From positions 1 to 24,889 of the IMG/VR virus record IMGVR_UViG_3300044701_000134: a DNA stretch of 24,889 nucleotides. One strand, written 5' to 3'. Shown piece by piece: positions 2,652 through 22,979 of the stretch (position 1 is its first letter; each line of letters opens with the position of its first letter). The notes under the pieces are model-generated. The model was not told where the DNA came from. It did not search any database and saw only the letters and a list, made by a program, of their open reading frames with translations. Made by a program: the position numbers and the translations under genes. The DNA comes from a virus.

Positions 2652-4007
2652 TTATGCAGGAAGATACTTCTGGGCTTTAATCTGCTTACCTTGCTTCTTT
2701 GTTCCTGTCCTAGCCTTACGAACCTTATCCATCATGGCATAAAGACGTTTAGCCCCAGCATCAGTAGAGCCATTACCTAAATGACTTACTACATCCGCTG
2801 GAACAACAAACTCCCCATCAGCCAATCGAGCTGGCTGTTTGCTACCGATAACCCCAGGAATAGAATCAGACATGCCATCACCAGGACCTTTAAGCATCCT
2901 ACCTCCATCTGAGTACCCTCCTAAACTAGTCATACCACCAGCCGCCATTGGTTGTGGATTTGTAGAATAACGATCAGTATTTGGATCAAAACTATAACCA
3001 CCAAACGATGGAACAGCGCCCATCATAGGTTGATTATCAACACTGTAGCGTTGCGTGTTTTGGTCAAAGTTGTATTTTGGTATCTGTGCTTGCTGACCTT
3101 GCTGTGCTTGAAGCATCATGTTTTCTATAAGCGCTAAACCACCGAAAGAATATTTCTTTACTGGACCGCCAGCAGCGTACCCCATACCAAATAAACCTTT
3201 TTGTAGGTTGCCCTGATCCATGCCCATAGCTGTGTAATCACCGCCTAGTTCATCATCTATTTGACCGCCTTTTGCTACCATAACTGGTTCATTAGGTTTT
3301 ATATTTGGATTTGGTGTTCCAGATTTAGCGGAATATGGTTGCAGTGCAGCAAATCCCTGATTAAAGTAATTGCGCTCTCTGGTATCCATGATTGGCATAC
3401 CAGCTGCATCATATTGCGCTGTAGCGTATGGGGATGGGTAAATACCTGTTGGTTCATTTGGTGTTGATGAATAGTCAAATGGACGAATTGTTCCAGGATC
3501 TGGCATTTGACCAGCGCCTACTCCTTTTTGTCTGCCACCTAATAAAGATAAAGCGGTTGTACCAGCTAAACCATATCCAAGAGTTTGCATACCAGTTAAT
3601 CCAGTAGCAGCTGGAGCAACTCCTGATGTAACAGTTCCAATTCCAGAAACTGGAGCAGCTGATCCTAGTGTAAGTGCTGGAGCAGCGCTTGGTGCTGCAA
3701 GAGCACCTGCTGGTACTCCTGTACTTACTGCTGTTGACATTGGGGCTGCTGCTTGACTGGCTAATGCACTACCTCCAGCACCAGTTGCTCCACCAGCTCC
3801 AGTTGCTGCGCCAGCGCTACCTGCCGCACCTAAACCCATCAAACCAGCACCAGCGCCACCAATAAGACCGCCAGTAAGCATACTGTTAAGAATATCTCCG
3901 TCACCAGTAATAGCCGAATAAGCGCCACCTACGCCAGCTCCAATTAACATTCCGCCAAGAATAGCGGATCCTCCTCCAACAGCTGTTGCTGTAGCAACGA
4001 ATGCCAT
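2652..4007 (-). CDS. Gly/Ala-rich putative ejection protein with conserved C-terminal domain, 451 aa
   Basis: Residues 1-160 are almost entirely Gly, Ala, Ser, Thr and Val with glycine-zipper-like runs (GGMLIGAGVGGA, GGLIGGAGAGLMGLG), suggesting membrane-active or tightly packed helices. The middle carries several AKGG-type motifs: VAKGGQI, YAAGGPVKKYSFGG and MAAGGMTSLGG. Residues 374-436 form a conserved phage module (GPGDGMSDSIPG, then LADGEFVVPADVVSHLGNG and a DAGAKRLYAMMDKVRKAR helix) that I know from many metagenomic phage proteins without an assigned function. The tail is very basic. It sits with the GNAT-like and Gln-rich proteins downstream of the nozzle, where podoviruses keep internal virion proteins; the ejection role is an inference. 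Confidence 0.7.
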   Translation of the reverse strand: MAFVATATAVGGGSAILGGMLIGAGVGGAYSAITGDGDILNSMLTGGLIGGAGAGLMGLGAAGSAGAATGAGGATGAGGSALASQAAAPMSTAVSTGVPAGALAAPSAAPALTLGSAAPVSGIGTVTSGVAPAATGLTGMQTLGYGLAGTTALSLLGGRQKGVGAGQMPDPGTIRPFDYSSTPNEPTGIYPSPYATAQYDAAGMPIMDTRERNYFNQGFAALQPYSAKSGTPNPNIKPNEPVMVAKGGQIDDELGGDYTAMGMDQGNLQKGLFGMGYAAGGPVKKYSFGGLALIENMMLQAQQGQQAQIPKYNFDQNTQRYSVDNQPMMGAVPSFGGYSFDPNTDRYSTNPQPMAAGGMTSLGGYSDGGRMLKGPGDGMSDSIPGVIGSKQPARLADGEFVVPADVVSHLGNGSTDAGAKRLYAMMDKVRKARTGTKKQGKQIKAQKYLPA

Positions 4008-8977: not shown

Positions 8978-9190
8978 TTAAAACACCTCTCCGCCAGCGG
9001 CAGGAACAGACGTAGCATGGATAGAAATATGCTGTCTTAGGTTTAAAGGCGCACCGCAGTCTGAACAGGTATCTGCCTCTAGCTCGGCTTTATCTAAGTC
9101 GTATCCACAGGCTGCACAAATAACCTCTACCTCATGGGCTGGTTCAATTAGCCCGCCCTCTAAATTTCTAGCCTCTACAAACTGTTTCAT
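8978..9190 (-). CDS. Zinc-ribbon small protein, 70 aa
   Basis: Two CxxC knuckles, Cys25-Ala-Ala-Cys28 and Cys42-Ser-Asp-Cys45, are separated by 13 residues with a Gly-Tyr after the first and Gly-Ala-Pro after the second, the pattern of a four-Cys zinc ribbon. The rest is acidic N-terminally and ends AAGGEVF. It starts in an ATGA overlap with the APS-kinase-like gene, so the two are co-translated. It may bind protein or nucleic acid; no further function can be read. Confidence 0.7.
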   Translation of the reverse strand: MKQFVEARNLEGGLIEPAHEVEVICAACGYDLDKAELEADTCSDCGAPLNLRQHISIHATSVPAAGGEVF

Positions 9191-10014
9191 GTCAGCCCCA
9201 TTTCTTTGCGGATCTTGGTTGCGGATATGTCTGTTATGGATTTATCAAAGGTCTCTTGTTCAATCTTGTAACCAACATCACGCCCATAGGTAATATTGAC
9301 GATATTAGGAACGACCTGAATCTCATACTGCCCTTGGAATAGGGGGTCTAAATCCCGTTTAATATTGTTCTTAACTTGCTCGATGGCAAACGGGTTACTA
9401 CCTTGCCAGCCCTGACAATCACGAATCTGAATAACTACTTGACCTGTCTTGGCAATGGCTCGTTCAAACAAAGCTCTATGTCCTTCATGCCACGGTTGCC
9501 ATCTGCCTAGCATTTGGACTGTTTCGGCTTGCCAGTTAAAGACGGGTCGTCTGCGGTTCTCAATAATGTGGTTGCCGATGAACTCAGCCCACTTCTCGCA
9601 GTTCTGCTCCGTTACACGGAAGTCATAGACCTCTGGTGGGATAAATGCTTTGTTGGTATCTTCGTACCGACCAGCATCAATGGTGTCCATCCAGATAGTC
9701 CAATCTGCCTTGAAGTTGTTACGCATCTCTACGAGTGGTGCTACAAAGTCGCAGATGACATAATCACCGCCAGCTTCTAAGGCAAACTGAGCCATGCGTA
9801 AGGATTGACGAATACGACCTTCTTTGGAGAAGTCCCAATCGTTGTACTTCTTACGCACTTCGTCTGCATTGAACCAATTAACTTGTGCGTTAAAGCCAGT
9901 AAAGGATTCGCCATAATCTTTGCGAGTACCGTTTGTTTCTAAATACTTCTTTAAGGCTTGTGCTAGGTAAGTCTTACCTGAACCTGGCAAACCCATGATT
10001 AGTATCTTTTTCAT
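9187..10014 (-). CDS. APS-kinase-like P-loop domain fused to HxGH nucleotidyltransferase, 275 aa
   Basis: The N-terminal domain (1-150) has a Walker A loop, GLPGSGKT at 8-15. It also has a conserved NADEVR (49-54), DWDFSKEGRIRQSLRMA (59-75) and VICDFVAP (86-93), which align with the DGDNxR, FSxxxRxENIRR and SFIxP positions of adenylylsulfate kinases; these make PAPS from APS and ATP. YEDTNKAFIPPEVYDFRV (117-134) fits the family's C-terminal part. The second domain (160-275) has GRWQPWHEGH (170-179), an HxGH motif, and ISATKIRKEM (263-272), as in NMN adenylyltransferases, cytidylyltransferases and, in outline, ATP sulfurylases. Whether the second domain makes APS, NAD or an activated sugar cannot be decided by eye. 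It lies in the sulfotransferase/glycosyltransferase block. Confidence 0.8.
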   Translation of the reverse strand: MKKILIMGLPGSGKTYLAQALKKYLETNGTRKDYGESFTGFNAQVNWFNADEVRKKYNDWDFSKEGRIRQSLRMAQFALEAGGDYVICDFVAPLVEMRNNFKADWTIWMDTIDAGRYEDTNKAFIPPEVYDFRVTEQNCEKWAEFIGNHIIENRRRPVFNWQAETVQMLGRWQPWHEGHRALFERAIAKTGQVVIQIRDCQGWQGSNPFAIEQVKNNIKRDLDPLFQGQYEIQVVPNIVNITYGRDVGYKIEQETFDKSITDISATKIRKEMGLT

Positions 10015-11090: not shown

Positions 11091-12793
11091 TTTATTCTCC
11101 TAATATTTTGGTTAAATTCACCAGTCACTTTAGCCAAAGGGGTATCCCAATCACCAAATTTCTCTTGCCTAAAAAGTCTGACATTACGATACCAGATGCT
11201 TGTGTCCTTGCCATCAGCCCATAAATAATAAGGCAATATTGGACTAATAATCCAAGTCTCTTTACCCATTGCTGCTGCTAAGTGTGCAACCGAAGTGCAA
11301 GAACTAATGACTTTATCCACACTCTCAATTACTGCCCTAGTATGTAACCAAGTATCTAGGCAAGGTCTTTGCACATGGTCAGGAATGTTTTCTGTCCCTA
11401 TGTCTCTTTGCAAGCTAATTAACTCTGCTGGTATTGTAAATAAAGGTGTTGGGTCAAATACCCTATTATGCTCATGCTCAAATTGTGGGTTGCCTTGCCA
11501 CCGCAGACCAATCTTGCCGTTAGGTTTAATGGTTTTGCAAGGTATATAGGGTGCGTTATTGACTGTTAAAAAGCTCAGATAGCCTGACATACCTAAGACA
11601 TGGTAATCATGGTAAACACCGCCAGCAGCCCTAGATTCAACCACCGCAGATACACCATCAACCAACATCATTAGACCAGCTAACTCAGCCATACAAGCAA
11701 CTACACATACACCGCCACGACTGACAATCTCTCTTGCCCATCTAGCAGAGTGTATTTGGTCGCCTCGACCACCTTCTAATACCAATAAAACAACTTCTCC
11801 ATTTAAAGGTCTGCCATCGTATTTTGGCATTGACGAGGGATTAGGATTACCAAATATTTCTTCGTTACGACCTCTATCTAATAGCTCAAAACCTTCTTTT
11901 AAGTTGCCATATTTTAGTGCGTACCAGCCACGATTAAATGCTGCTCTGTCATCGTGCGGTCTTGTGTCTAAAAGAATTTTGCACATTGACTCGGCAACCT
12001 CAAACTCACCCCGCATAGCAGCTTCTACTTGGAAGTCTAGTACATCCTTTTTAGGTTCTGTTTCACCCTTCCAAAACTTAGGAGCATGGAACCTATACTC
12101 AAACTCACCCAATACTTCTTTAGGGGATGTGCCTGTGTTTTTTAGTTCAGGTTTGATGTCGTGCAGACCAGCAATACCCCAAGCGTTTTCATCATCCTCT
12201 GCAACTGATTTACCATCAATATTATTAAAGTCGTGAGCAAATGGCTGTAGATTCCAAAAGGCTTCTATCTTAGCAATGACCGCCTGTGGGTCTGACATCA
12301 ACTCATCGTACTCAACAAATAGAATGTTTTCAGGATGATTGGTATACCCTTCATACAAAGAAGCGTAAGAATTTTTTAAATGTCCAATTAAATGACCATT
12401 ACAAAACTCAGCAAGGTTCTCTGGTTTAGCAATTTTGGCAAACGATGCTGCACAAGTAGCTACATCCCTGACAGTAGCAACAATTCGCACTGGTGAGCCT
12501 AAGACCTCGCCCATTGTCTTTTGAACCTGCGGTGCTACCCAACCCCTAGACTTATCAACAGTAATCTTGCCATCATCCCGCACAGGGATTAGCTTCCTAA
12601 GTGTTTCGTAAAGATGCTCGTTAGTTTGTCGTTGACCTTTGGTTGATGGGTTGTTTTCCCATGTTTGTACGACAGAACCAAATATATCAATTAGTCCTGA
12701 AGTTGGCGTTACATGGATGTCGTTTCTCTGATTTAGCAACGCAGCTAAAACAGTAGAGCCTGAACGGGGGAGTCCTGATAAAAAGTACATCAT
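11087..12793 (-). CDS. Sulfotransferase-TPR-glycosyltransferase (GT-B) fusion, 568 aa
   Basis: Residues 1-195 are a PAPS-dependent sulfotransferase. The 5'-phosphosulfate loop is SGLPRSGSTVLAALL (6-20). The 3'-phosphate motif is VRDVATCAASFAK (108-120) with Arg109 and Ser117, and ILFVEYDELMSDP (157-169) is the usual following block. Residues 253-308 look like a TPR pair. Residues 333-568 form a GT-B half related to GT9/GT41-type enzymes: LEGGRGDQIHSARWA (339-353), IGLRWQGNP (428-436) and SSCTSVAHLAAAMGKETW (497-514). The protein could sulfate and glycosylate the same acceptor. It starts in an ATGA overlap with the RCC1-protein gene, so it is made with the presumed receptor-binding proteins. 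Domain calls are solid; substrates unknown. Confidence 0.85.
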   Translation of the reverse strand: MMYFLSGLPRSGSTVLAALLNQRNDIHVTPTSGLIDIFGSVVQTWENNPSTKGQRQTNEHLYETLRKLIPVRDDGKITVDKSRGWVAPQVQKTMGEVLGSPVRIVATVRDVATCAASFAKIAKPENLAEFCNGHLIGHLKNSYASLYEGYTNHPENILFVEYDELMSDPQAVIAKIEAFWNLQPFAHDFNNIDGKSVAEDDENAWGIAGLHDIKPELKNTGTSPKEVLGEFEYRFHAPKFWKGETEPKKDVLDFQVEAAMRGEFEVAESMCKILLDTRPHDDRAAFNRGWYALKYGNLKEGFELLDRGRNEEIFGNPNPSSMPKYDGRPLNGEVVLLVLEGGRGDQIHSARWAREIVSRGGVCVVACMAELAGLMMLVDGVSAVVESRAAGGVYHDYHVLGMSGYLSFLTVNNAPYIPCKTIKPNGKIGLRWQGNPQFEHEHNRVFDPTPLFTIPAELISLQRDIGTENIPDHVQRPCLDTWLHTRAVIESVDKVISSCTSVAHLAAAMGKETWIISPILPYYLWADGKDTSIWYRNVRLFRQEKFGDWDTPLAKVTGEFNQNIRRIK

Positions 12794-15264
12794 CCTCTAG
12801 TACTCAATACAGAGTTCCCTGCTTGTGTTGGTATAAGCCAACTTGTTAAAGTACCTATTTGTTTTGGAGAACTAAAAAACGCACCATAACCTTGTCCAGT
12901 TTGCCCAACACCACCGTTACCCCAAGCCCATAGTGTTCCATCTGTTTTAACACACATTGGTGTGGTTGATCCGTTTGCGTTACCTTGACGCAATAAGCTC
13001 CAATTAGTTAATGAACCAATCTGAACAGGAGATGAACGGCTAACAGTATCACCTAAACCTAATTCACCTGTACCGTTATTACCTCCAACAGCCCACAATG
13101 ATCCATCGGTTTTTATGCAAAGAGTTTGCGCATATCCACCCATCGGTTGTTTCCAATTAGTTAAAGCACCAACTTGAACTGGCGATGAGCGTTTAACTGT
13201 ATCGCCCAATCCTAATTGACCTTGAGCGTTATCGCCCCAGATAAATAATTTTCCATCTGTTGTTGTACACGCAGTATGGCTACGACCATTTGATGCTATA
13301 TACCAATTGGTTGATGAGCCAATTTGAATTGGAGAAGAAAAATATGTTGTATTTCCATTTCCTAATTGACCATAATGGTTTCTACCCCAAGCCCATAATT
13401 GTCCATTTGTTTTAGTAGCAATACAAAAATCAAGACCAGTATTGCTAACTCTGTTCCAATCAGTTAATGATCCAACTTGTACTGGAGATGAACGGTTGAT
13501 TGTGTCGCCTAAACCTAAACCACCAAAACTAGCGTTACTTCCCCAAGACCACAATGTTCCATCTGTTTTAATACATATTGAACTTCTATAACCAGCACTA
13601 ATTTTAGACCAATTAGTTAAAGAGCCAACTTGTACAGGCGAAGAACGATAAATTACAGTATCTGATCCTAATTGACCCCTTTGATTAGCACCCCATGACC
13701 ACAAACTACCATCAGCTTTGGTACATAAAGTAAAGCCTAGATTACCATTATTGCTACCACCAGATGGAGTTTTCCAATTTGTTAATGCACCAACCTGTAC
13801 AGGAGAGTCATATCTAGTTGTATTGTTTAATCCTAATTGACCTTGTCCGTTATAACCCCAACCAAATAATCTACCTACATAAGCAGTTACTACAGCTGTA
13901 CTAGCAGAAGTTGCGGGTGTTGAGCCAATACCATTAGTGGCTGTTACTACGCAACGAAGCGTAGAGCCAACATCAGCTGCATCAATTGTATAAGTGCTAG
14001 ATGTAGCGCCAACAATGTTGCTAGTACCTCGTTGCCATTGATAAGCAAAACTGGTTGGGAATTGACGCCATGTTCCCGTGCTGCAAGAAAGAACGCTTTG
14101 CTGTTCTGCTGTTCCTGTAATCACTGGCAATGTTAAATTGCTTGGTGCAGCAGTTGCTACTCCTTCTATAGCGCCAGTTGCCCCTATGCCCCCATCTAAT
14201 GTAAACCACAGGCTTGAAGAACCGATTTGAACAGGAGAAAGACGCTGTGTGGTGTTTCCTAAACCTAGTCTACCAGCACCATTATATCCCCAAGCCCAAA
14301 GAGTACCATCTGTTTTAATGCAAAAACTAGAAAGTGTTGATGCTGATGGAACAGACCAATTTGTTAATGCACCAATTTGTTTTGGAGACGAATAAGCATA
14401 CGGACCACCAAGACCTAATTGACCATATGCACCGCCACCCCATGACCACAAACTACCATTAGTTTTTGTACACAAACTAAAATTATCACCACCTGTTGGT
14501 GTTGCCCAATCAGTTAAACTTCCAACTTGTTTTGGAGATGAGTAACTTGTGGTATTTCCAAGACCTAATCGACCATTACCACCGTTACCCCAAACCCATA
14601 AAGTTCCATCGGTTTTAACACATAAAGAGTGCCGTCTACCTGCGGATGGTGTTGCCCAATTAGTTAAAGCACCAACTTGTACAGGAGACGAACGGTTAGC
14701 AGTATCACCAAGTCCTAGCTGACCATAGTTATTATAGCCCCAAGCAAACAATTTACCATCAGTGTTAACAGCTAAAACAGCATACGATGCTGTTGCTTTT
14801 GACCAATTAGTTAAAGAACCGATTTGTTTAGGGGATGAATAATTAGTTGTGTTTCCTAGCCCTAAACTACCATAATTGCCTCGACCCCAAGACCATAATG
14901 TTCCATTGTCTTTAATACTTAAAGAAAAACTAGCAAAACCCGCTACTGGAGTTGCCCAACCTGTCAATGCGCCAACTTGAACAGGAGAAGAACGCCAAGC
15001 TGTATCATTTAAACCTAATGCGCCATAGTTGTTAAAACCCCAAGTCCATAATGTTCCATCGGTTTTAGTTGCAACTGTGTGATTACCTGTTTCAAATTTT
15101 GCCCAATCTGTTAGTGCTCCAACCTGAACTGGAGATGATCTATTTGCTGTATCGCCTATACCTAATTGACCAAAATTACCTTGCCCCCACATAAATAGCT
15201 TACCGCCAGAAAGTGGGATAGCAGAAATAGCTTTAGCAAATAAGAAATTACGAGAACCGAACAT
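12790..15264 (-). CDS. Double RCC1-propeller protein with central Ig-like domain, 824 aa
   Basis: Fourteen RCC1-type repeats of about 50 residues are visible, each with (T/S)LWxWGxxxxGxLGLGxT, SSPxQ(V/I)G, LTNW and a closing xCxKTDG. Seven cover residues 22-371 and seven cover 465-824, suggesting two seven-bladed beta-propellers. Between them, 374-461 is an Ig-like fold (SCSTGTWRQFPTSFAYQWQ, later LRCVVTATNGIGS). The N-terminal 20 residues could serve as an attachment. It lies directly after the tail-fibre-like gene and before the sulfotransferase fusion, so I infer a receptor-binding or fibre-tip protein rather than the guanine-exchange role of eukaryotic RCC1. It has a good ribosome binding site (AAGGGA). 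No catalytic motif seen. Confidence 0.85.
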   Translation of the reverse strand: MFGSRNFLFAKAISAIPLSGGKLFMWGQGNFGQLGIGDTANRSSPVQVGALTDWAKFETGNHTVATKTDGTLWTWGFNNYGALGLNDTAWRSSPVQVGALTGWATPVAGFASFSLSIKDNGTLWSWGRGNYGSLGLGNTTNYSSPKQIGSLTNWSKATASYAVLAVNTDGKLFAWGYNNYGQLGLGDTANRSSPVQVGALTNWATPSAGRRHSLCVKTDGTLWVWGNGGNGRLGLGNTTSYSSPKQVGSLTDWATPTGGDNFSLCTKTNGSLWSWGGGAYGQLGLGGPYAYSSPKQIGALTNWSVPSASTLSSFCIKTDGTLWAWGYNGAGRLGLGNTTQRLSPVQIGSSSLWFTLDGGIGATGAIEGVATAAPSNLTLPVITGTAEQQSVLSCSTGTWRQFPTSFAYQWQRGTSNIVGATSSTYTIDAADVGSTLRCVVTATNGIGSTPATSASTAVVTAYVGRLFGWGYNGQGQLGLNNTTRYDSPVQVGALTNWKTPSGGSNNGNLGFTLCTKADGSLWSWGANQRGQLGSDTVIYRSSPVQVGSLTNWSKISAGYRSSICIKTDGTLWSWGSNASFGGLGLGDTINRSSPVQVGSLTDWNRVSNTGLDFCIATKTNGQLWAWGRNHYGQLGNGNTTYFSSPIQIGSSTNWYIASNGRSHTACTTTDGKLFIWGDNAQGQLGLGDTVKRSSPVQVGALTNWKQPMGGYAQTLCIKTDGSLWAVGGNNGTGELGLGDTVSRSSPVQIGSLTNWSLLRQGNANGSTTPMCVKTDGTLWAWGNGGVGQTGQGYGAFFSSPKQIGTLTSWLIPTQAGNSVLSTRG
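12793..15201 (-). repeat. In-frame RCC1 repeat array (two blocks of seven, about 150 bases each)
   Basis: Fourteen diverged copies of a roughly 150-base unit encode the RCC1 blades, in two blocks at about 14149-15201 and 12793-13872 with the Ig-like segment between. The copies are similar at protein level but have many base differences, so recombination between blades is possible while exact repeats are short. Confidence 0.75.
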
Positions 15265-16159: not shown

Positions 16160-16184
16160 TACTTATTTTATGCTGCTATTTCAA
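16156..16184 (-). promoter_or_regulatory. Candidate sigma70-type promoter for the tail-fibre gene
   Basis: On the minus strand TTGAAA (16184-16179) is followed after exactly 17 bases by TATTAT (16161-16156); each hexamer matches consensus at five of six positions. Transcription would start near 16149, leaving about 18 bases to the ATG at 16130 with AAGGA in between. The -35 lies inside the end of the upstream gene, so coding constraint could mimic it. The location in the longest gap of the window supports it. Confidence 0.5.
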
Positions 16185-16533
16185 CCCAATTCGGGGTCTG
16201 GTTGTCATTAATAGTGATCCAAACCGTTACCGATGTAACACTAGCCGTACCGCTAACACCCACCACATTTACAGGTGTAATAACATTTACATTAACCGTT
16301 CCAACAGACCCTGTAGCTTGCAGACCCGTAACTGGGGTATTAGCTGCTCCTGCTACAGAAACTGACCCTACAAAAACTGTACCCGCTACGCCTGTAACTT
16401 CTACGGGATTTAGTATAAAAGTCACAGAACCTACTGCTCCTGTGGCTACAAGTGATACATTCCCTTCTCCCCAAGCTGCGCTTCCCCATCCTTGGCTACC
16501 AAACCCGCCTAGGGCTATAGTGACATCGCTCAT
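16168..16533 (-). CDS. Short 22-residue-repeat protein with Trp/Gly head, 121 aa
   Basis: A smaller paralogue of the upstream 322-aa gene. The head DVTIALGGFGSQGWGSAAWG (residues 3-22) matches the DVDVVLGGWGYKGWGESPWG head of that protein, and the tail VWITINDNQTPNWVEIAA matches its VWSLIDDNQNPNWTLIRTAA. Between them are only four beta-type repeat units (TGAVGSVTF, GTVFVGSVSVAGAAN, TGSVGTVNV, GTASVTSVTV). It starts by ATGA overlap with the long copy. A virion surface or fibre-associated role is inferred from the neighbourhood; no function is known to me. Confidence 0.65.
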   Translation of the reverse strand: MSDVTIALGGFGSQGWGSAAWGEGNVSLVATGAVGSVTFILNPVEVTGVAGTVFVGSVSVAGAANTPVTGLQATGSVGTVNVNVITPVNVVGVSGTASVTSVTVWITINDNQTPNWVEIAA

Positions 16534-17498
16534 GCTGCCGTCCTAATTAGCGTCCAATTTGGGTTCTGATTATCATCAATTAAGCTCCAAACTAAAACAC
16601 TTCCTACTTGTCCTGTACCCTGCACTCCCGTTACGCTAACATTAGCCGAGGCAGTAGTTGTTACGCTACCTACGCTAACTGTACCTGCAACGCCTGTTAC
16701 TAGAACTTCAATACTAGGGGTTACTACTACTGTCCCTACGGCTACCGTACCTACTACGCCTACAACGTCTACAACTGCCGTGCCTGTTATAGAAGCAGTG
16801 CCTAAACTAATAGTTCCAGCGACTCCTACGACAAAGACGCCAACACCTTCTTCAACCGTTACTGATCCTACGCTACCTGTCGAAGTTACTCCTGTAACCG
16901 CAACATCAGCCCCAGCTTGTGCTACAACAGAACCTACAGCCGCTGTACCAGAAACCCCAGTAACATCAACTAAAAGCGACCCATCAATTTCTACACTGCC
17001 TATCGCTCCAGAACCGCTAACTCCCGTTACAGCAACATTAGCACCAGCCGTTACAGTAACTGTTCCTACCGACCCTGTACCTGACAGCCCAGAAACTGAA
17101 ACATCAGCTCCAGCCTGTGCGTCAACAGAACCTACAGAAGCCGTTCCTGATACACCTGTAACGCTGACATTTGCTGCACCCGTAATAGTGACGCTACCAA
17201 TTTCTCCTGCGCCAGATACTCCAGTTACATCTACAACTGCCGTTCCCGTTACCGTTGCACTACCTAACTGCCCAGTACCAGAAACGCCTGTTACATTAAC
17301 ATTTACATTTTCAGTGGTCTGAACAGTTACAGAACCTACTTGCCCTGTTCCTACTACACTATCACTACCTTGACCCCAAGGGCTTTCGCCCCAACCTTTA
17401 TACCCCCAGCCGCCTAATACAACGTCTACATCAGCGTAATCTTCGCCCCAAGGTCCGCCACTCCAGACTCCCCTGCTCCAGCCTGAATATGTCGGCAC
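16530..17498 (-). CDS. 22-residue-repeat protein with Trp/Gly head, 322 aa
   Basis: Residues 1-49 carry three Trp-Gly motifs (WSGGPWG, GWGYKGWGESPWGQG). From residue 50 there are twelve tandem units of the pattern GTGxVGSVTVTxGAxVxVTGVS, all 22 residues except the first (24), and then a conserved ending DDNQNPNWTLIRTAA. Alternating small and Val residues suggest a beta-solenoid or stacked beta strands with no catalytic residues. The start is GTG at 17498 without a clear ribosome binding site, 4 bases after the upstream stop, so translational coupling is likely. It lies among adaptor and fibre genes; a structural or fibre-like role is inferred. Confidence 0.7.
   Translation of the reverse strand: MPTYSGWSRGVWSGGPWGEDYADVDVVLGGWGYKGWGESPWGQGSDSVVGTGQVGSVTVQTTENVNVNVTGVSGTGQLGSATVTGTAVVDVTGVSGAGEIGSVTITGAANVSVTGVSGTASVGSVDAQAGADVSVSGLSGTGSVGTVTVTAGANVAVTGVSGSGAIGSVEIDGSLLVDVTGVSGTAAVGSVVAQAGADVAVTGVTSTGSVGSVTVEEGVGVFVVGVAGTISLGTASITGTAVVDVVGVVGTVAVGTVVVTPSIEVLVTGVAGTVSVGSVTTTASANVSVTGVQGTGQVGSVLVWSLIDDNQNPNWTLIRTAA
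16587..17351 (-). repeat. 66-base in-frame tandem repeat array
   Basis: Twelve consecutive units encode the 22-residue repeat of the 322-aa protein. All keep the reading frame (66 bases, first unit 72). Peptide pattern is conserved while codons vary, arguing against a very recent expansion. Some pairs, such as the two units containing AQAGADV, are more similar to each other than to their neighbours, suggesting block duplication. Confidence 0.75.
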
Positions 17499-17964: not shown

Positions 17965-18252
17965 CTATTCGTCTAAAAGTTTAATTAATTCAGGATGACC
18001 AGCTTCCCGTAGCTTATAAGCTAGTGTTACACGGTCAAATTTTACCGCTTCATTCATGTAAAAGACTAGCACTTCCCGAATATGATTACGAAAAGCAGTC
18101 GCCTGCTCCCGAACCAATGGATGAGACTGATCCCCTACCTGAATAATTTTATCTAACGCCCGTTCAGCAACTTCCTCTGGGGTAAAGCCACCGTGGTCTT
18201 TTGTAAATACTTGAATGCCGCTAGACTCGCCTAGCCCTTGTACATTAATCAT
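17965..18252 (-). CDS. Conserved small helical phage protein, 95 aa
   Basis: Signature pieces are GLGESSGIQVFTKDHGGFTPEEVAERA in two parts (residues 6-32), then QSHPLVREQATAFRNHIREVLVFYM and a C-terminal AGHPELIKLLDE. Mostly helical and acidic. This is a recurring protein of unknown function in phages with related adaptor genes. ATGA overlap couples it to the second adaptor gene upstream. Confidence 0.65.
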   Translation of the reverse strand: MINVQGLGESSGIQVFTKDHGGFTPEEVAERALDKIIQVGDQSHPLVREQATAFRNHIREVLVFYMNEAVKFDRVTLAYKLREAGHPELIKLLDE

Positions 18253-18908
18253 CTGACTGGATACCTTACTTGCCCACTTCTGTAGGCGTCTTGACGATTC
18301 TTACCATCGCCCAATTGTTTAAGTTCTGCCATTGCATCGTCATAACGGGACTTATAGACCGTCATAGTATCAGCGTCTGACTTCATAAATAAAGCTGCTT
18401 CTAACAACGCCCCGTATAAAAGAGCAGAGTCAAAATTATCACCTAACCAAGTATTGCCTGCAGTCACAATGGACTGCGGATAATAGAAATAATGCAGTTC
18501 TACGGCATAGTTTTGGTCTGGAGTAGGACCAAGAATAAAGGTATTGTCATCAAAAATAGCGTAATACTCTGGTTTGGCATAAAACGCTGCATCCGTGTCT
18601 GGGTAGGATTGACGGATAAAGTTGACATCTTTATTCAACAGATAGTGATACTCATTTGCCGTATTAATCACCGCCAGGCTAAAGGTGGATAACCAGTCAG
18701 AAGGAGTCGCTAAGTACTTATTCCCCGTGGTAAGCCCACCCGTAACGTTCTTACGTATAGCAGGTAACTGCACCATGTTATAGATGCGTTGCTCTGCTAA
18801 CTGAACAAAACGAGCAATCTGTTCAGCAGAAGTAAAAGAGCCTACTGTCGCTGGGAAGTCGTTCTCAGCAAACCCTTTAATTGCAGAAGTTAACTGCGTG
18901 TAATTCAT
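18249..18908 (-). CDS. Head-tail adaptor (gp4/SU10-type connector), 219 aa
   Basis: Residues 28-60 (IARFVQLAEQRIYNMVQLPAIRK) and 65-76 (KYLATPSDWLS), then PEYYAIFDDNTFILGPTP, ELHYFYYPQSI, the acidic/aliphatic DNFDSALLYGALLEAALFMKSD and a final helix YDDAMAELKQL are typical of the adaptor ring that sits below the portal in short-tailed phages. Length suits the family (about 200-230 aa). It overlaps by 4 bases with the genes on either side. Family recognition is confident; I cannot tell how it divides the work with the other adaptor-type protein at 19806-20732. Confidence 0.82.
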   Translation of the reverse strand: MNYTQLTSAIKGFAENDFPATVGSFTSAEQIARFVQLAEQRIYNMVQLPAIRKNVTGGLTTGNKYLATPSDWLSTFSLAVINTANEYHYLLNKDVNFIRQSYPDTDAAFYAKPEYYAIFDDNTFILGPTPDQNYAVELHYFYYPQSIVTAGNTWLGDNFDSALLYGALLEAALFMKSDADTMTVYKSRYDDAMAELKQLGDGKNRQDAYRSGQVRYPVR

Positions 18909-19174
18909 CCCATCTTCCCGCTAGACATACGACCTTTAGTAGCTGCACCAGCGCCACGCATTTCAATCTTGCCGTATTGATTTACGGGTTTACCATTACC
19001 TTTGCTAATACCGTCAACCGAGATATTCATAGTCGCCATTTGTTCTGCGCCAGTCATACCTTTAGAAGTCAGTCCTTTAGCAGAGATTGTCTTACCCTTC
19101 ATCGTATGGGGAGGAGCATAGACTTTAGCGTCTCCGACTTCCTTGCCCATTACTTTTTTAGAATAGTGAGCCAT
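18905..19174 (-). CDS. Small basic Gly/Lys-rich phage protein, 89 aa
   Basis: A low-complexity basic protein ending in GKIEMRGAGAATKGRMSSGKMG. The MRGxGAATKG motif is one I have seen at the C-termini of other small phage proteins, so it is probably conserved though unnamed. There is no membrane segment or cysteine motif. It shares one base (TAATG) with the upstream 70-aa gene and 4 bases with the adaptor gene. A DNA- or capsid-bound role is a guess from charge. Confidence 0.6.
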   Translation of the reverse strand: MAHYSKKVMGKEVGDAKVYAPPHTMKGKTISAKGLTSKGMTGAEQMATMNISVDGISKGNGKPVNQYGKIEMRGAGAATKGRMSSGKMG

Positions 19175-19386
19175 TATCGACCCCTTCCAGCACTTTTACG
19201 CATCATGCCTTGGTTCTTAACCTTAGCTAGATTACGTCCCATTTTCTTCATGTCCATCTGGTCTTTACCGCCCATCTTGGGTTTAGCTTTCATGCCCAGA
19301 ACAGTAGGACCTGAGTCACCTAAATTTTTACCTTCAGTCTTGCCTTTTTTAGCAATCCCATCTGCGTCTTTCTTAAACATTTTCAA
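19174..19386 (-). CDS. Small basic protein carrying an ADGxAxxGKT motif, 70 aa
   Basis: Residues 4-20 read FKKDADGIAKKGKTEGK, clearly related to the KRADGCAIRGKT tag at the C-termini of proteins encoded at 21243-21915, but here the motif is near the N-terminus. The remainder is Lys/Met/Gly-rich (KPKMGGKDQMDMKKMG) and ends KSAGRGR. A strong ribosome binding site (AAGGAG) precedes the ATG. Unknown function. Confidence 0.6.
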   Translation of the reverse strand: MKMFKKDADGIAKKGKTEGKNLGDSGPTVLGMKAKPKMGGKDQMDMKKMGRNLAKVKNQGMMRKSAGRGR

Positions 19387-19390
19387 CTCC

Positions 19391-19813
19391 TTATGTTGTT
19401 GTTACCGTTACACTACCTACCTGACCTTCTGGGGCTAAGTTGTTGGGGGTTAATCCATCGTCTCTAGCACCGCCAACAGGGTTCCATCCCCACTGAAATA
19501 TTCTACTACCACCTTCTGGAAAACCAACACCTTCTTCAGTATTATCGTTACTTCCATTCAGTTGTAAACCGCTACTTCCAGATACCTGATAGCTTATATC
19601 AGGGCGTGGTTCCCGTACAGCCTGTGGGTCATCAACTGGGTACATCCCTAACGACAATTGTGGTTGATCTGGGTCCCAACAACTAGGGCAAACCTTGATG
19701 TTCTTTATTTGCTGCTTTACAACTAACTTCCGTAGCTCCTTTAACTTATACCGCTGACCACATCGGTCACATTCGGCAATCGCAAATTTGCCACTACTAA
19801 ATTTATTAGGCAT
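19391..19813 (-). CDS. Zinc-ribbon phage protein, 140 aa
   Basis: Residues 15-18 (CDRC) and 42-45 (CPSC) form a four-Cys zinc site, with the basic helix YKLKELRKLVVKQQ between. The segment continues SCWDPDQPQLSLGMYPVDDPQAVREPRPD, which I recognise as a conserved phage protein. The C-terminus has FQWGWNP and ends APEGQVGSVTVTTT, one unit of the 22-residue repeat seen at 16587-17351. It starts 8 bases inside the end of the adaptor-type gene. Role in the virion is unknown; nucleic-acid binding is possible. Confidence 0.72.
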   Translation of the reverse strand: MPNKFSSGKFAIAECDRCGQRYKLKELRKLVVKQQIKNIKVCPSCWDPDQPQLSLGMYPVDDPQAVREPRPDISYQVSGSSGLQLNGSNDNTEEGVGFPEGGSRIFQWGWNPVGGARDDGLTPNNLAPEGQVGSVTVTTT

Positions 19814-20732
19814 AGAAGGTCGTCCTAGGAACGAACCTAGAAGCGGCTTTCTCTCTGTCCTCCGTAGAAGCCAGGAGCCACTGCTCCTCGTATTCTTGCT
19901 TTAAAAATTGCACTCGTGCCTGTCCGTCTGGTAGCTTTTGAGCCATATAGAAAGCCAATCCAGCCACCATACAAGGTAATAGGCGAAAGGGAATATCAGG
20001 CTCTACAGCTCCATTAGATCCAGCATCTTGAATCCTACGCAACCTCCAGTACACAAAGGTATACGGACCACCACCAGCGTCAGGTGTGGGCCAAACATTA
20101 ATGGAAGGAAGATTCTGTATAGTAATTGCTGCACCTGTCGTATGGCTTGCAGCCGTAGTTCCGTTTTGACCACGGTAGCAGTTTGTTAGAACATTCCCTA
20201 TGACATTGGCATAGCTAATTGTTTCGTTATCAATTTTGATAAATCCACCGATAGGAAGGGCGCTTGCATCTGTGACGGTAATAGAAGTAGCCGCAGCATC
20301 AATTGTGCCGTTTAAAGCCACAGCGGTCGAATTAGACTGTCCTGTCTGGCGGTTAAACCAAACTTGAATAGGACGCCCAGTAGTTAGCTTATTAGGAATT
20401 GTAGAGTAGGTAGACTCTGAAATACGGCTAATATTGATGTCAATCTGGTTGCTTGTAACGCCATTATTCTGACGAACGACATGGTCTAAAAGGTCAATCG
20501 TATTAACTGGAATAGGATAAATACCTTGCCCAGTAACCATTGCAACCTGACCCTGCTCAATAGTCCAGAGGTTAATACCACGGTTAGCCCATTCAACTGT
20601 CAATAGGTTCAAAGACCTGCGGGCAGTCCGCATATCGTAACCAGTACGAAGCTCCGTACCACAACGCTCAAAAGCCTCTTCAATGAGGTTATTGAGGTCT
20701 AGGTTGAAGGTTGTAGTTCCAGAAGTACTCAT
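19806..20732 (-). CDS. Head-tail connector/adaptor-type protein with beta insertion, 308 aa
   Basis: Residues 11-62 (LDLNNLIEEAFERCGTELR, then ARRSLNLLTVEWANRGINLWTIEQ) and 69-83 (GQGIYPIPVNTIDLL) are typical of gp4-like adaptor proteins of podoviruses, and PFRLLPCMVAGLAFYMAQKLP plus KQEYEEQWLLASTEDREK fit the C-terminal helices. Between VWFNRQTGQ and INVWPTPDAG, residues about 137-206 are a beta module (ATSITVTDASALPIGGFIKI, then CYRGQNGTTAASHTTGA) that I know as a portable domain in unrelated phage proteins. It overlaps the 82-aa gene by 4 bases. Moderately sure of adaptor function; it could be a second ring or a related tail protein. Confidence 0.78.
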   Translation of the reverse strand: MSTSGTTTFNLDLNNLIEEAFERCGTELRTGYDMRTARRSLNLLTVEWANRGINLWTIEQGQVAMVTGQGIYPIPVNTIDLLDHVVRQNNGVTSNQIDINISRISESTYSTIPNKLTTGRPIQVWFNRQTGQSNSTAVALNGTIDAAATSITVTDASALPIGGFIKIDNETISYANVIGNVLTNCYRGQNGTTAASHTTGAAITIQNLPSINVWPTPDAGGGPYTFVYWRLRRIQDAGSNGAVEPDIPFRLLPCMVAGLAFYMAQKLPDGQARVQFLKQEYEEQWLLASTEDREKAASRFVPRTTFYA

Positions 20733-20977
20733 ATCTTCCTATATGGTTTTACTTTTGCTTTTACTTTTTTTGGCTGCGGGACGAACTGCTTTCCCTGTGC
20801 TTTGCCTTGTCGTTTTGCTCGTGTTGTTGCTGCGTACTCCTGTGGGCTTAGGGCTTCGATTGCTTTTTTTGGCAGGTATCTTTCGCCCGTCTCGGACGAC
20901 TTCTTCCCTGACTTGGTTGTCCATTTCTGGTCTCCCCAAGCCTTTAAAGAACGCTGAGACTTTGCTAAACCACTCAT
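20729..20977 (-). CDS. Small basic phage protein, 82 aa
   Basis: This frame gives WGDQKWTTKSGKKSSETGERYLPKKAIEALSPQEYAATTRAKRQGKAQGKQFVPQP in pieces, a pattern I recognise from many phages (KWTTKSGKxSSETGERYLP and YAATTRAKRxGxxxGKQF). Very basic, no membrane segment. ATGA overlaps at both ends, with the 90-aa gene upstream and the adaptor gene downstream, support this frame over the competing one at 20739-20987. It may bind nucleic acid; function unknown. Confidence 0.75.
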   Translation of the reverse strand: MSGLAKSQRSLKAWGDQKWTTKSGKKSSETGERYLPKKAIEALSPQEYAATTRAKRQGKAQGKQFVPQPKKVKAKVKPYRKI

Positions 20978-21246
20978 TTATAGCCACCGCCAGCTGCCTT
21001 ATATTTTTTAGCTACCAACTGCGCTTTACGAGCTGACCATTGACCTGCGCCAGTACCATGTGTTGCAGCTGCTTTTACCTGAGAAACAATCCGCTTACGC
21101 AAACCTGGTTTGGTATAGTTTCCAGCTGCATTGACCTTGCCACCCTCTTTATATTGAGTAAAGTCGGTGTCGTCCCTACGAGCTTTCTTAACGCCTCTGC
21201 CCATTTTAGTGGGCATAATTGCGCCCATGCCACGACTAGGTCTCAT
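20974..21246 (-). CDS. Small basic phage protein with GQWSARKAQ motif, 90 aa
   Basis: Features are YKEGGKVNAAGNYTKPGLRKR and then GAGQWSARKAQLVAKKYKAAGGGYK, a conserved block of unknown function found in phages and some large DNA viruses (related, as I recall, to DUF5872). I chose the ATG at 21246 (MRPSRGMG) because it forms an ATGA overlap with the previous stop and has GGAAGG 8 bases upstream; a start at 21273 would add 9 residues. The GGKV tag start is shared with neighbours. Confidence 0.72.
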   Translation of the reverse strand: MRPSRGMGAIMPTKMGRGVKKARRDDTDFTQYKEGGKVNAAGNYTKPGLRKRIVSQVKAAATHGTGAGQWSARKAQLVAKKYKAAGGGYK

Positions 21247-21623
21247 ATCTTTGTCCTTCCACGAATAGCGCAACCATCTGCTCGTTTAGAGGCAGAAGAT
21301 ACTTTACCTCCAGCTTTGTAATTCTTAGTAATATCACGGTTAGATTTAGGCATTGCACCGCCACCGCCTTTAGGCAATCTACCCATATCTTGCAATCTTT
21401 CAGTATAGGTTCGTGGACGCTCGGCTTCTGCTTTTGCCTTTGTTTCCTCTGAAATTCTTTTTACTTCGGCTTTAGCTTTTTCAAGATCACTTTTAAACTT
21501 TTCAGCTACTTCAGGGTTTTTATCCTTATCATTAGACATAGAACGAGCTTTAGCTGGTGGCTCTTTGCCACCCTCTAAATTTAATTGGCTCATTATCTCA
21601 GTCGCTTTGATAGGATCAGGCAC
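21243..21623 (-). CDS. Charged protein with C-terminal GGKV-KRADG tag, 126 aa
   Basis: Residues 30-75 are a charged helix (AEKFKSDLEKAKAEVKRISE), followed by ERLQDMGRLPKGGGGAMPKS and the C-terminal tag AGGKVSSASKRADGCAIRG then RTKI. The start is GTG at 21623 with AGAGGA 7 bases upstream; an in-frame ATG ten codons later has a poorer site. It overlaps the upstream gene by 8 bases and the next by 4. No known function; the tag is shared with the 99-aa neighbour almost residue for residue. Confidence 0.68.
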   Translation of the reverse strand: MPDPIKATEIMSQLNLEGGKEPPAKARSMSNDKDKNPEVAEKFKSDLEKAKAEVKRISEETKAKAEAERPRTYTERLQDMGRLPKGGGGAMPKSNRDITKNYKAGGKVSSASKRADGCAIRGRTKI

Positions 21624-21915
21624 GAGTTTTTCCTCTTATTGCACAACCATCAGCACGTTTAGAAGCACTAGATACTTTTCCACCTTTAGCTTTTTTAACT
21701 GGTTCTGGCTTTTTCTTTTCTGGACCAAAGATCTTATCCCGTAGCTTAACCATAGGATTAGCTTCGTTCTCCTCACGGGTAAGACGATCAACCATCTCTT
21801 GTGGGAGCTCGTCTTTAACAACAGTTCCTTTATTAAAGCCTGGAACGCCACGTCCTTTAAGGACGTCAGCACGAGTTACTTTACCGTCATCGTTAAGGTC
21901 TGGGAAATTAGCCAT
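21616..21915 (-). CDS. EF-hand-loop protein with C-terminal GGKV-KRADG tag, 99 aa
   Basis: The N-terminus, NFPDLNDDGKVTRADVLKGR, contains an EF-hand or dockerin-type calcium loop: Asp6, Asn8, Asp10, Gly11, Val13, Thr14, Asp17 fill positions 1, 3, 5, 6, 8, 9 and 12. A helical acidic middle (LPQEMVDRLTREENEANP) and a Lys/Pro-rich linker lead to the tag KGGKVSSASKRADGCAIRGK. I prefer the ATG at 21915, two bases past the upstream stop; a TTG three codons earlier is poorer. Calcium binding is inferred from the loop alone. Confidence 0.7.
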   Translation of the reverse strand: MANFPDLNDDGKVTRADVLKGRGVPGFNKGTVVKDELPQEMVDRLTREENEANPMVKLRDKIFGPEKKKPEPVKKAKGGKVSSASKRADGCAIRGKTRA

Positions 21916-21917
21916 GA

Positions 21918-22472
21918 TTAGCAATATCCGCCTGATTTCATCTTAACCATAGTGCCTTTGGTTTTGCCTTTTACAGCAACGCCATTAGCTTTAGATAACT
22001 GAGCTACTTTGCCACCACTAGCCATGCCGTGCATACGCTTTTCGTGACCTTTAACGGCTTTGGTAGCTACTTTTTTCATGGATGTCATACCGCCATTGTT
22101 CATTTTAGCCTCTGCCATCTCATGTTTAATCATGGATTTAGGAGCGCCTTTTTTCTTCATAAAACCAATTTCTTTCTTAACCATCATCTTAGATTCTTTC
22201 ATTTCTTTTCCTTTCAAGGTTCCACCTTCTTTTTTACCAACATACTTTTCTAAACTAACATTTGGTAATTGCATCATCCCATGATTAGAACGTGGTTTGT
22301 TGAATTTACCTTTGGATGGATTGGTAGATCCACCAGTTCTAAACTTTTTACCTTTATCAGCTTCCATAAAATCCTCTCCAACAGATTTAGGAATGCCAAC
22401 TTTTTTAGCAAACTTAGGGTTATTAGCCACAGCTGCCATTAGGTTGTGCTGTTTTTTGCTAACGCTAGGCAT
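21918..22472 (-). CDS. Lys/Met/Gly-rich phage protein with tag-like C-terminus, 184 aa
   Basis: The start, PSVSKKQHNLMAAVANNPK and then FAKKVGIPKSVGEDFMEADKG, recalls small phage proteins of the PxxSKxQ type (DUF3008-like in outline). The rest is strongly basic and low in complexity, with repeated GG motifs (FRTGGS, MNNGGM, MASGGKV, MKSGGYC). LSKANGVAVKGKTKG near the end is a diverged form of the KRADGCAIRGKT tag. AAGGGA lies 6 bases before the ATG. No catalytic motif; perhaps an internal or scaffold-like protein. Confidence 0.65.
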   Translation of the reverse strand: MPSVSKKQHNLMAAVANNPKFAKKVGIPKSVGEDFMEADKGKKFRTGGSTNPSKGKFNKPRSNHGMMQLPNVSLEKYVGKKEGGTLKGKEMKESKMMVKKEIGFMKKKGAPKSMIKHEMAEAKMNNGGMTSMKKVATKAVKGHEKRMHGMASGGKVAQLSKANGVAVKGKTKGTMVKMKSGGYC

Positions 22473-22716
22473 TTATTTTCCCTTGAATAAGCTGGTCAAT
22501 TTTGACTTCAAGCTTGTTAAAGCGTTGGTCAATATGAGCCATAATTTTGTCAATTTCTGCTTGAGTAACGTTATCACGAGCTACCTCCTCACGGGTTTTA
22601 TTTAATAGGATGTTAAGACGTGCCAGTTCAGAAGACTTCTCTCTTGCCCAAAGACCAACAAGAACTCCTGCTAGTGTTAGAACTGCGTTCCATAGATATA
22701 ACATTTCTTGGCTCAT
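22465..22716 (-). CDS. Small membrane-anchored coiled-coil protein, 83 aa
   Basis: An N-terminal transmembrane segment (LYLWNAVLTLAGVLVGLWA, about residues 6-24) is followed by a charged coiled-coil helix to the C-terminus, with hydrophobic spacing in IDKIMAHIDQRFNKLEVKIDQLI. I start at the ATG at 22716 because GGAAG stands 8 bases before it; an earlier ATG at 22731 lacks a site. Could be a membrane-active accessory (holin- or spanin-like), though it is far from the lysis genes. Unassigned family. Confidence 0.62.
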   Translation of the reverse strand: MSQEMLYLWNAVLTLAGVLVGLWAREKSSELARLNILLNKTREEVARDNVTQAEIDKIMAHIDQRFNKLEVKIDQLIQGKINA

Positions 22717-22718
22717 GT

Positions 22719-22979
22719 TTAGCACTTCCATCTTGCTAAAGAAGCTGCTTTACGGGTAGGTCTGCCTTTTTCATCTTTCATTGGTCCAGGCATCCCAGAC
22801 ATGCGAGCGCAAAATGATTTCTTTCTAGCGCCACCTTCTGGCTGTGGAGCCTTTAGATTAGATCCAGTAGCTTTGTTGTACTTAGCACGACCTTTTGCGG
22901 TTAAGCCAGCACCCTTGGATACTGGTAATTTCTCACCACGACCAATTGCTAAAGAAGGAGTTTTCTTTTTGGTAGCCAT
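22719..22979 (-). CDS. Small basic phage protein ending RWKC (DUF6321-like), 86 aa
   Basis: The block KGAGLTAKGRAKYNKATGSN and then KKSFCARMSGMPGPMKD and the final ARWKC form a pattern I know from numerous phages, including T7-like marine ones (I recall the name DUF6321, not verified here). Two Cys (CARM and the terminal Cys) are conserved in that pattern. Highly basic. TAATG overlap couples it to the glycosyltransferase upstream. Function unknown. Confidence 0.75.
   Translation of the reverse strand: MATKKKTPSLAIGRGEKLPVSKGAGLTAKGRAKYNKATGSNLKAPQPEGGARKKSFCARMSGMPGPMKDEKGRPTRKAASLARWKC

Follow-up and report, generated by a model that had tools for sequence, protein, structure and literature searches.

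A recurrent C-terminal peptide on unrelated small proteins of a phage head-gene slot, possibly a docking label for the virus particle

Why would neighbouring phage genes for otherwise different small proteins encode the same short basic peptide? The question is raised by IMG/VR virus record IMGVR_UViG_3300044701_000134, which was analysed as a whole (24,889 bases; the window) and whose evident genes all lie on the minus strand. A first-pass annotation of the letters alone had noticed such a peptide, here called tag 1, in four small proteins of the window. We find the peptide at the C-terminus of many unrelated protein bodies, in a single slot of the head module of one phage clade. Our favoured but tentative answer, put forward at somewhat less than an even chance, is that it may be a C-terminal docking label bringing variable small proteins into the virus particle.

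A conserved peptide in four small proteins of one record

All four small proteins were confirmed, and they and their tag copies are as follows.

21918..22472, minus strand: 184-aa (amino acid) protein; starts with a PSVSKKQ domain (phrog_16759), has a middle part of low confidence and carries a diverged tag close to its C-terminus
21921..21995, minus strand: diverged tag with extended C-terminus, SKANGVAVKGKTKGTMVKMKSGGYC, within the 184-aa protein; the form typical of the whole PSVSKKQ family
21616..21924, minus strand: 102-aa protein, read from TTG; 99 aa if the ATG at 21915 is used (21616-21915)
21619..21696, minus strand: tag 1 copy KKAKGGKVSSASKRADGCAIRGKTRA, within the 102-aa protein
21243..21623, minus strand: 126-aa protein; C-terminal tag in a short form ending IRGRTKI at the stop; orthologue in record G013
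21246..21320, minus strand: tag 1 copy YKAGGKVSSASKRADGCAIRGRTKI, within the 126-aa protein
19174..19386, minus strand: 70-aa basic protein of a conserved family; motif near the N-terminus
19330..19371, minus strand: N-terminal motif KDADGIAKKGKTEG, within the 70-aa protein

The 126-aa and 102-aa proteins both conform to the definition of tag 1, namely a C-terminal core G-[ICV]-A-x-[RK]-G-K-T with a hidden Markov model (HMM) E < 1e-3. Our recount agrees with the first-pass annotation that the two proteins share GGKVSSASKRADGCAIRG without a difference in 18 residues, and that the 20 codons running from GG to the last Thr comprise 8 identical, 11 synonymously different and 1 nonsynonymous (Lys/Arg) pairs. 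Its view that the copies are not recent also stands: the synonymous difference between tags hardly changes from 0.525 within a record to 0.582 between records, which speaks against recent duplication as the origin of the common tag. Synonymous positions diverge while the peptide is kept, indicating that purifying selection acts on it.

The diverged forms that had been noted in the 184-aa and 70-aa proteins are supported as well. An HMM built only from the C-termini of other phages matched the four window proteins with E values of 3e-10, 7e-12, 3e-3 and 6e-4, and had zero matches in reversed open reading frames (ORFs). The third value, above the 1e-3 cut-off, belongs to the 184-aa protein with its diverged tag and extended C-terminus, the fourth to the N-terminal motif of the 70-aa protein. 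Because this independent profile finds them and nothing in reversed ORFs, we take both diverged copies as very probably real. They are also conserved across their families: 70-aa orthologues in several other loci have the motif at the same N-terminal place, and some relatives of the 184-aa protein end in RDGVAVKGKTKGKNLGDSGKTVGI, intermediate toward its own KGKTEGKNLGDSGPTV.

The body of the 102-aa protein begins with an EF-hand/dockerin-like loop, FPDLNDDGKVTRADVLKGRGV, followed by the C-terminal tag in the short form ending IRGKTRA. The loop pattern DxNDDGxVTxxD is present, while Pfam gives no match; the same segment recurs, without the tag, in gp44 of Pelagibacter phage HTVC027P.

Tag 1 is fixed at the C-terminus of many unrelated bodies

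For a wider view, IMG/VR loci were fetched by DNA patterns for the tag core, such as R-A-D-G-x-A-x-R-G-K-T, yielding at least 120, at least 120 (partly the same loci) and 56 stretches. Since these patterns fix core residues, conservation inside R-A-D-G-x-A-x-R-G-K-T is partly built in; the fetch did not condition on position in the protein, gene order, strand or body diversity. Because many small genes of GC-rich records escaped a greedy gene caller, the counts come from six-frame profile searches.

The profile detected tag 1 in at least 547 ORFs (at least 497 unique) of at least 276 IMG/VR loci, with 0 matches among 48,046 reversed ORFs from the listed loci. Among the matches listed, 84% of unique proteins stop no more than one residue from the profile end and 98% within 20. 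Eleven listed cases are not C-terminal: eight are relatives of the 70-aa protein with its N-terminal motif, two resemble the 184-aa protein but have a longer tail, and the last is an apparent out-of-place frame. The consensus reads [KM]KGG[KS]V-S-SAS-x-R-A-D-G-[IC]-A-x-[RK]-G-K-T-[RK]-G-[KR]-hydrophobic-[VCI]-COOH, with an alternative short form ending IRGKTRA, and its median isoelectric point (pI) is 10.7. Three kinds of ending precede the stop: medium, [KR]G[KR][MIVFY][VCI]; short, [RK]A; and long, of the type GTM[IV]xM..GG.. at the very end. Some PSVSKKQ proteins (L020:430-1080:+ and one in L100) end in two tandem tags, GGGIESRGKTKGTIIRMASGGSVSSASRRADGIAQRGKTRC, and [YM]AKGG or MAGGG motifs resembling the start of the tag are scattered in the 451-aa (2652-4007) and 732-aa (23-2221) proteins of the window.

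The first-pass annotation had suggested tabulating what the tag is attached to, and the tally came to at least about 100 otherwise unrelated body families: at least ~102 among 239 unique tag proteins in a looser pass, 72 of them singletons. Single-linkage clustering of bodies is rough, and in a larger set it gave 141 groups with 230 of 485 bodies drawn into one, partly through common low-complexity stretches. The bodies are mostly low-complexity and basic. In the 239-protein set their medians are 89 aa and pI 9.4, with ~5% near pI 5; Ala, Lys, Gly, Glu and Arg are abundant and Cys makes up 0.1%. Pfam matched 100 representative bodies to DUF6321 once and to an anchor family weakly and probably spuriously, and PHROGs added solely DUF6321-type, PSVSKKQ-type and one unnamed match. 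Where homologous bodies could be compared, identity fell to ~42% while the tag core was still ~90% identical, a core figure partly conditioned by the fetch patterns.

Outside phages the peptide is close to absent. Random placement in unrelated host proteins, which the first-pass annotation had named as evidence that would speak against it, was not seen in 84,980 bacterial and archaeal genomes, where the exact pattern occurs twice. One occurrence is a phage contig inside a metagenome-assembled genome (MAG), with the same gene order as the tag clade; in the other (JALRCL010000652.1, L165:1-600, a Patulibacter MAG) the tag is fused in frame to an acyltransferase near the contig end, probably a chimeric assembly. 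No convincing relative of the tag was found in PDB or PHROG, and a search of an open-access subset of the literature met none of the tag peptides. Searches of 50,697 phage records by tblastn with a 28-aa tag and with a tag-2 protein (see below) gave no match, although such short queries lack power; the tag of Planktothrix phage Pag-Yong1, described below, was detected by the profile alone.

A second tag can replace the first

The same slot uses a second C-terminal peptide, tag 2, with the pattern KKGG[AS]V[KR]GWGxARGARxAKVY before the stop (KGGAVKGWGKARGARKAKVY-COOH). It replaces tag 1 on closely related bodies: of two orthologues with 85.5% identity over 173 aa (loci L117 and L120), one has tag 1 and the other ends in KKGGSVRGWGMARGARAAKIR, and their DNA similarity runs through the GYKKGG codons and ends right after KKGG. 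A scan for the tag-2 ending returned 57 stretches. It lies exactly five residues before the stop in 60 of 62 ORFs of the loci examined, and by profile tag 2 is C-terminal in 62/62 ORFs, with zero in reversed sequence. All 57 of these loci carry head or adaptor markers of the clade and 32 also hold tag 1, while a tag-1 homologue exists for 18 of 43 tag-2 bodies, at up to 85.5% identity. An apparent orthologue of another tag-1 protein in DSL-LC04, matched by eye, ends in KGQGRVIRSKKTRIC, which appears to be a third ending.

When the two tags are aligned from the stop, position -9 is R/K, -8 is G, -4 is G/A/C, -3 is mostly K/R and -2 is hydrophobic in both, the tag-1 set having been fetched by core pattern. 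We infer that one kind of C-terminal reader may recognise both.

The exchange bears on three other explanations. The tag might be selfish or inert, a fast-spreading 3'-end module without a function of its own that moves through a recombination hotspot at the KKGG codons. The position of the tag 2 exchange, exactly at the KKGG junction, and the variability of the bodies would suit such a module, which is nevertheless disfavoured because purifying selection acts on the peptide: it is held while many synonymous positions differ (8/11/1 in the window; 0.525 versus 0.582). We regard this explanation as highly improbable.

Scarcely better placed is the proposal, also raised in the first-pass annotation, that the tag is a cleavage signal for a phage head protease. 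Internal proteins of the T4 type combine targeting with cleavage (PMC5694885), and a SprT-like metalloprotease-family gene (PF10263; G013 13242-13595, L148) lies just downstream of the capsid gene in G013, the closest relative of the window. Tag 2, however, replaces tag 1 despite a different core, and no classical Pfam prohead protease was found among ten scanned proteins of the G013 head region, a subset of its genes. The core is nearly always the very C-terminus itself, so that cleavage would release just the tag peptide; we consider processing as its main role very unlikely.

In the third explanation, tagged proteins would balance the charge of the packaged genome in the manner of histones or protamines, the tag being a basic peptide that binds DNA or RNA. 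The high pI of tags (median 10.7) and bodies (median 9.4), the strongly basic character of nearly the whole gene cluster and the low-complexity bodies all speak for it. Charge neutralisation, on the other hand, has no need of an invariant D-G and G-K-T at a fixed distance from the C-terminus, nor does it fit two different sequences in the same position on homologous bodies, or the ~5% of bodies with a pI near 5. Condensation as the function of the tag thus appears unlikely to us. DNA had been listed as a candidate partner; as the sole partner it is less likely, because DNA binding requires neither an invariant Asp-Gly nor a fixed register nor an end-point at the C-terminus, while the mostly strongly basic cluster leaves room for DNA contact.

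One slot in the head module of one phage clade

The genes surrounding the tag genes in the window are these.

22719..22979, minus strand: 86-aa DUF6321 protein; upstream slot border; untagged in the window, itself tagged in other members of the clade
22465..22731, minus strand: 88-aa protein; a single apparent transmembrane helix, a coiled coil; slot neighbour
20974..21273, minus strand: 99-aa basic GNYTKP...GQWSARKAQ protein (phrog_17747); downstream slot border
20729..20977, minus strand: 82-aa basic protein (phrog_14910); slot neighbour
19806..20732, minus strand: 308-aa protein; both sequence and position make it an orthologue of a gene annotated portal/tail adaptor in related isolates
19391..19813, minus strand: 140-aa protein with a CxxC...CxxC zinc-ribbon-like start
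18905..19174, minus strand: 89-aa basic protein, part of the conserved head-tail block
18249..18908, minus strand: 219-aa virion structural/tail protein (phrog_2941)

The DUF6321 assignment (PF19846) scores 84 bits against a curated cut-off of 28.5. In the listed loci with a complete tag ORF, tag genes lie among the same marker genes in all but two 1-kb fragments. The order is portal, scaffold, pre-MCP (MCP, major capsid protein), MCP, in some a cement gene, DUF6321, a small transmembrane protein and then one to four tag genes, followed by the GNYTKP protein, the 82-aa protein, the 308-aa adaptor, the zinc-ribbon protein, the 89-aa protein and the 219-aa structural protein. Head and adaptor markers in the listed loci match at least 1,753 times on the strand of the tag and 0 times on the opposite strand; MCP, scaffold and portal are always upstream and the 219-aa structural protein always downstream, and in 221 of 234 cases the 308-aa adaptor is downstream as well. 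These loci hold 1-6 tagged proteins per record and 1-4 per slot.

By its genes the clade consists of HTVC023P-type podoviruses and relatives, known almost only from metagenomes. The capsid protein of G013, a close relative, matches Phage_capsid_4/Mu-like gpT and shares 65-70% identity with the capsid proteins of Pag-Yong1, DSL-LC04 and HTVC027P/023P. HTVC027P, HTVC023P, DSL-LC04 and Pag-Yong1/MinM2 are alike in a head gene order with small basic genes; Pag-Yong1/MinM2 is the only tagged case among the related isolates read, with a 308-aa protein ending in IGRDGCAKRGRTKGRFI soon after the capsid gene. As it happens, a stretch of 15,976 bp is 100% identical between Planktothrix phage Pag-Yong1 and Synechococcus phage MinM2 (OL906435.1 and OQ594354.1; L166 14377-30352 and L168 1-15976). 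Both, like Pra-JY27 (PP438419.1), are reported from culture and measure 65,014 bp, yet are filed under different cyanobacterial hosts; they are possibly the phage of a common contaminant or associated bacterium.

Elsewhere in the window we observed an 824-aa protein of RCC1-like repeats (12790-15264; WGxGxxGQLGxGxT), a type known as a virion protein in jumbo phage GAP32 (PMC5259590), and a 322-aa protein of repeated VxVTGVSGTxxVGSV units (16530-17498) with a shorter relative at 16168-16533. By eye, the product of 9187-10014 joins an N-terminal P-loop kinase-like part to a C-terminal nucleotidyltransferase-like part (RWQPWHEGHRALFERA), as in enzymes of nicotinamide adenine dinucleotide (NAD) salvage, and might bear on NAD-depleting defence.

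The tag might instead mark proteins for the portal/adaptor/nozzle junction or for association with large ejection proteins, rather than for the head interior. The slot directly precedes the adaptor genes, which are annotated as portal adaptor in related isolates, and the window encodes a 732-aa member of a DNA-ejection family (23-2221; phrog_4287). That tagged proteins differ so strongly in number, length and sequence among phages would be unusual in a symmetric machine, and we think a place at the portal vertex improbable.

We find it equally improbable that tagged proteins are non-virion late products whose C-terminus is read by a host or phage factor in the cytoplasm, such as a protease adaptor (the basic signal for ClpX at the C-terminus of MuA may be compared), a ribosome component or a membrane component. 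The strict register at a free C-terminus would suit such a reader, and host takeover typically involves small variable proteins. Tag genes, however, always lie within the structural operon and on its strand; among the matches listed, the scans made found them in one phage clade only, and no host protein in the 84,980 genomes uses the tag.

A domain of the 184-aa protein is found in jumbo phages

The 184-aa protein conforms to the PSVSKKQ family definition (N-terminal MP[ST]xSKKQHNxM...FAKKxGxPxSVG), with E 4.2e-22 to phrog_16759 and 68% identity over 53 aa to phiKZ gp165.1. AlphaFold predicts its N-terminal ~40 residues as a compact three-helix unit (predicted local distance difference test, pLDDT, ~90 or more for residues 6-38) and a second helix pair at 90-125, the remainder including the tag being of low confidence. 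The predicted structure has no match in PDB, and BFVD gives just relatives from jumbo and uncultured phages. In the first locus set of the tag clade we counted 84 PSVSKKQ proteins, nearly all ending in a diverged tag; in a few, such as those of L027 and L114, a DUF6321 domain takes its place at the end. The domain is common to phiKZ gp165.1 and many jumbo phages, and also begins CBB_322 of Pectobacterium phage CBB (phrog_16759, phrog_22033). In contrast to the window protein, gp165.1 ends without the tag, which was not found in those phages.

A docking label for the virus particle?

A common docking partner for the tagged bodies, as the first-pass annotation had suggested, is well supported by the many bodies, the fixed C-terminal register, the single head-cluster slot, the near-absence from hosts and the exchange with tag 2 on homologous bodies. 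In the reading we favour, a variable slot between capsid and tail-adaptor genes would encode one to four small, mostly basic, phage-specific proteins, whose label would be read by its C-terminal end by a component of the assembling head. The most likely readers would be the acidic scaffold, the portal or the inner capsid surface: portal, scaffold and MCP are acidic (net charge -42, -21 and -12), and tag proteins are basic. Tagged proteins would thereby enter the particle and might be ejected along with the DNA, and the second label would perform the same job and substitute for the first on the same body. The near-invariant core, which includes D-G, also fits this reading, as do the working precedents of the T4 and P1 signals. 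A further point in its favour is CBB_322, which begins with the N-terminal domain of the 184-aa protein: mass spectrometry of purified CBB virions identified it by 30 unique peptides, at 43.6% coverage (PMC5259590), the one experimental tie between this gene cluster and virions. Virion incorporation, receptor and ejection are our inferences.

Several points weigh against this reading. Our search of the open-access literature found no virion proteome of any tag-bearing phage. The tie through CBB_322 bears on that N-terminal domain rather than on the tag. The untagged neighbours of 99, 82, 86 and 89 aa are as basic as the tag proteins, so that the tag is not the sole feature of the cluster. No tag was detectable in the stretches read of Pelagibacter phages HTVC027P and HTVC023P and Roseobacter phage CRP-902, which have the same capsid type, and a universal capsid receptor therefore cannot be involved. 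The hydrophobic end common to the medium form and tag 2 is missing from the short form, IRGKTRA, and AlphaFold, given the 99-aa protein and 84 aligned tag proteins, produced no fold and no confident tag structure (pLDDT 67, predicted template modelling score 0.24). Finally, the tag sits at the opposite end from the targeting signals of phages T4 and P1.

A bolder extension, which we hold to be rather unlikely, is a two-label C-terminal code for cargo loading: proteins of the hypervariable slot would be loaded via either peptide by the same head component and delivered into the host as fast-evolving early effectors. If the tag is a loading label, it would provide a sequence rule for picking virion-carried proteins, almost none with an annotated domain, in many uncultured phages, and a short peptide by which foreign proteins could be loaded into phage capsids; it would also extend targeting by a common peptide to short-tailed phages, in a C-terminal and exchangeable form. 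If it is not, a peptide that is near-constant at the free C-terminus of ~100 unrelated bodies still wants explanation.

Comparison with known targeting signals

In phage T4, the internal proteins IPI-III and Alt carry a common short peptide on different proteins, which associate with the core during head assembly (PMC5694885). Tag 1 resembles this capsid-targeting sequence (CTS) in being one short peptide common to several otherwise different proteins of a phage. The T4 CTS is an N-terminal propeptide of 10-20 residues that is removed by the head protease, whereas the tag, a putative targeting signal, is C-terminal, ~25 residues long and spread over at least ~100 body families across a clade. 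With 98% of the unique listed tag proteins carrying it within 20 residues of the C-terminus, the tag lacks the defining N-terminal position and is therefore not a member of the T4 CTS family. In phage P1, the N-terminal 30 residues of DarB suffice to carry a reporter into the capsid (PMC9024508). This is likewise a short label, there on a defence-related protein, but it is N-terminal and without a consensus among Dar proteins, unlike the near-invariant tag peptide.

Encapsulins offer a further comparison. Their cargo-loading peptides are short, C-terminal and found on varied cargo, and dock inside an HK97-type shell. The shell here would be a phage capsid protein (Phage_capsid_4/Mu-like gpT), and the tag is longer and basic, its docking being putative. 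By analogy with these systems, we tentatively propose, with a little less than even confidence, that the tag may work like the capsid-targeting sequences of T4 and P1, but from the other end of the protein.

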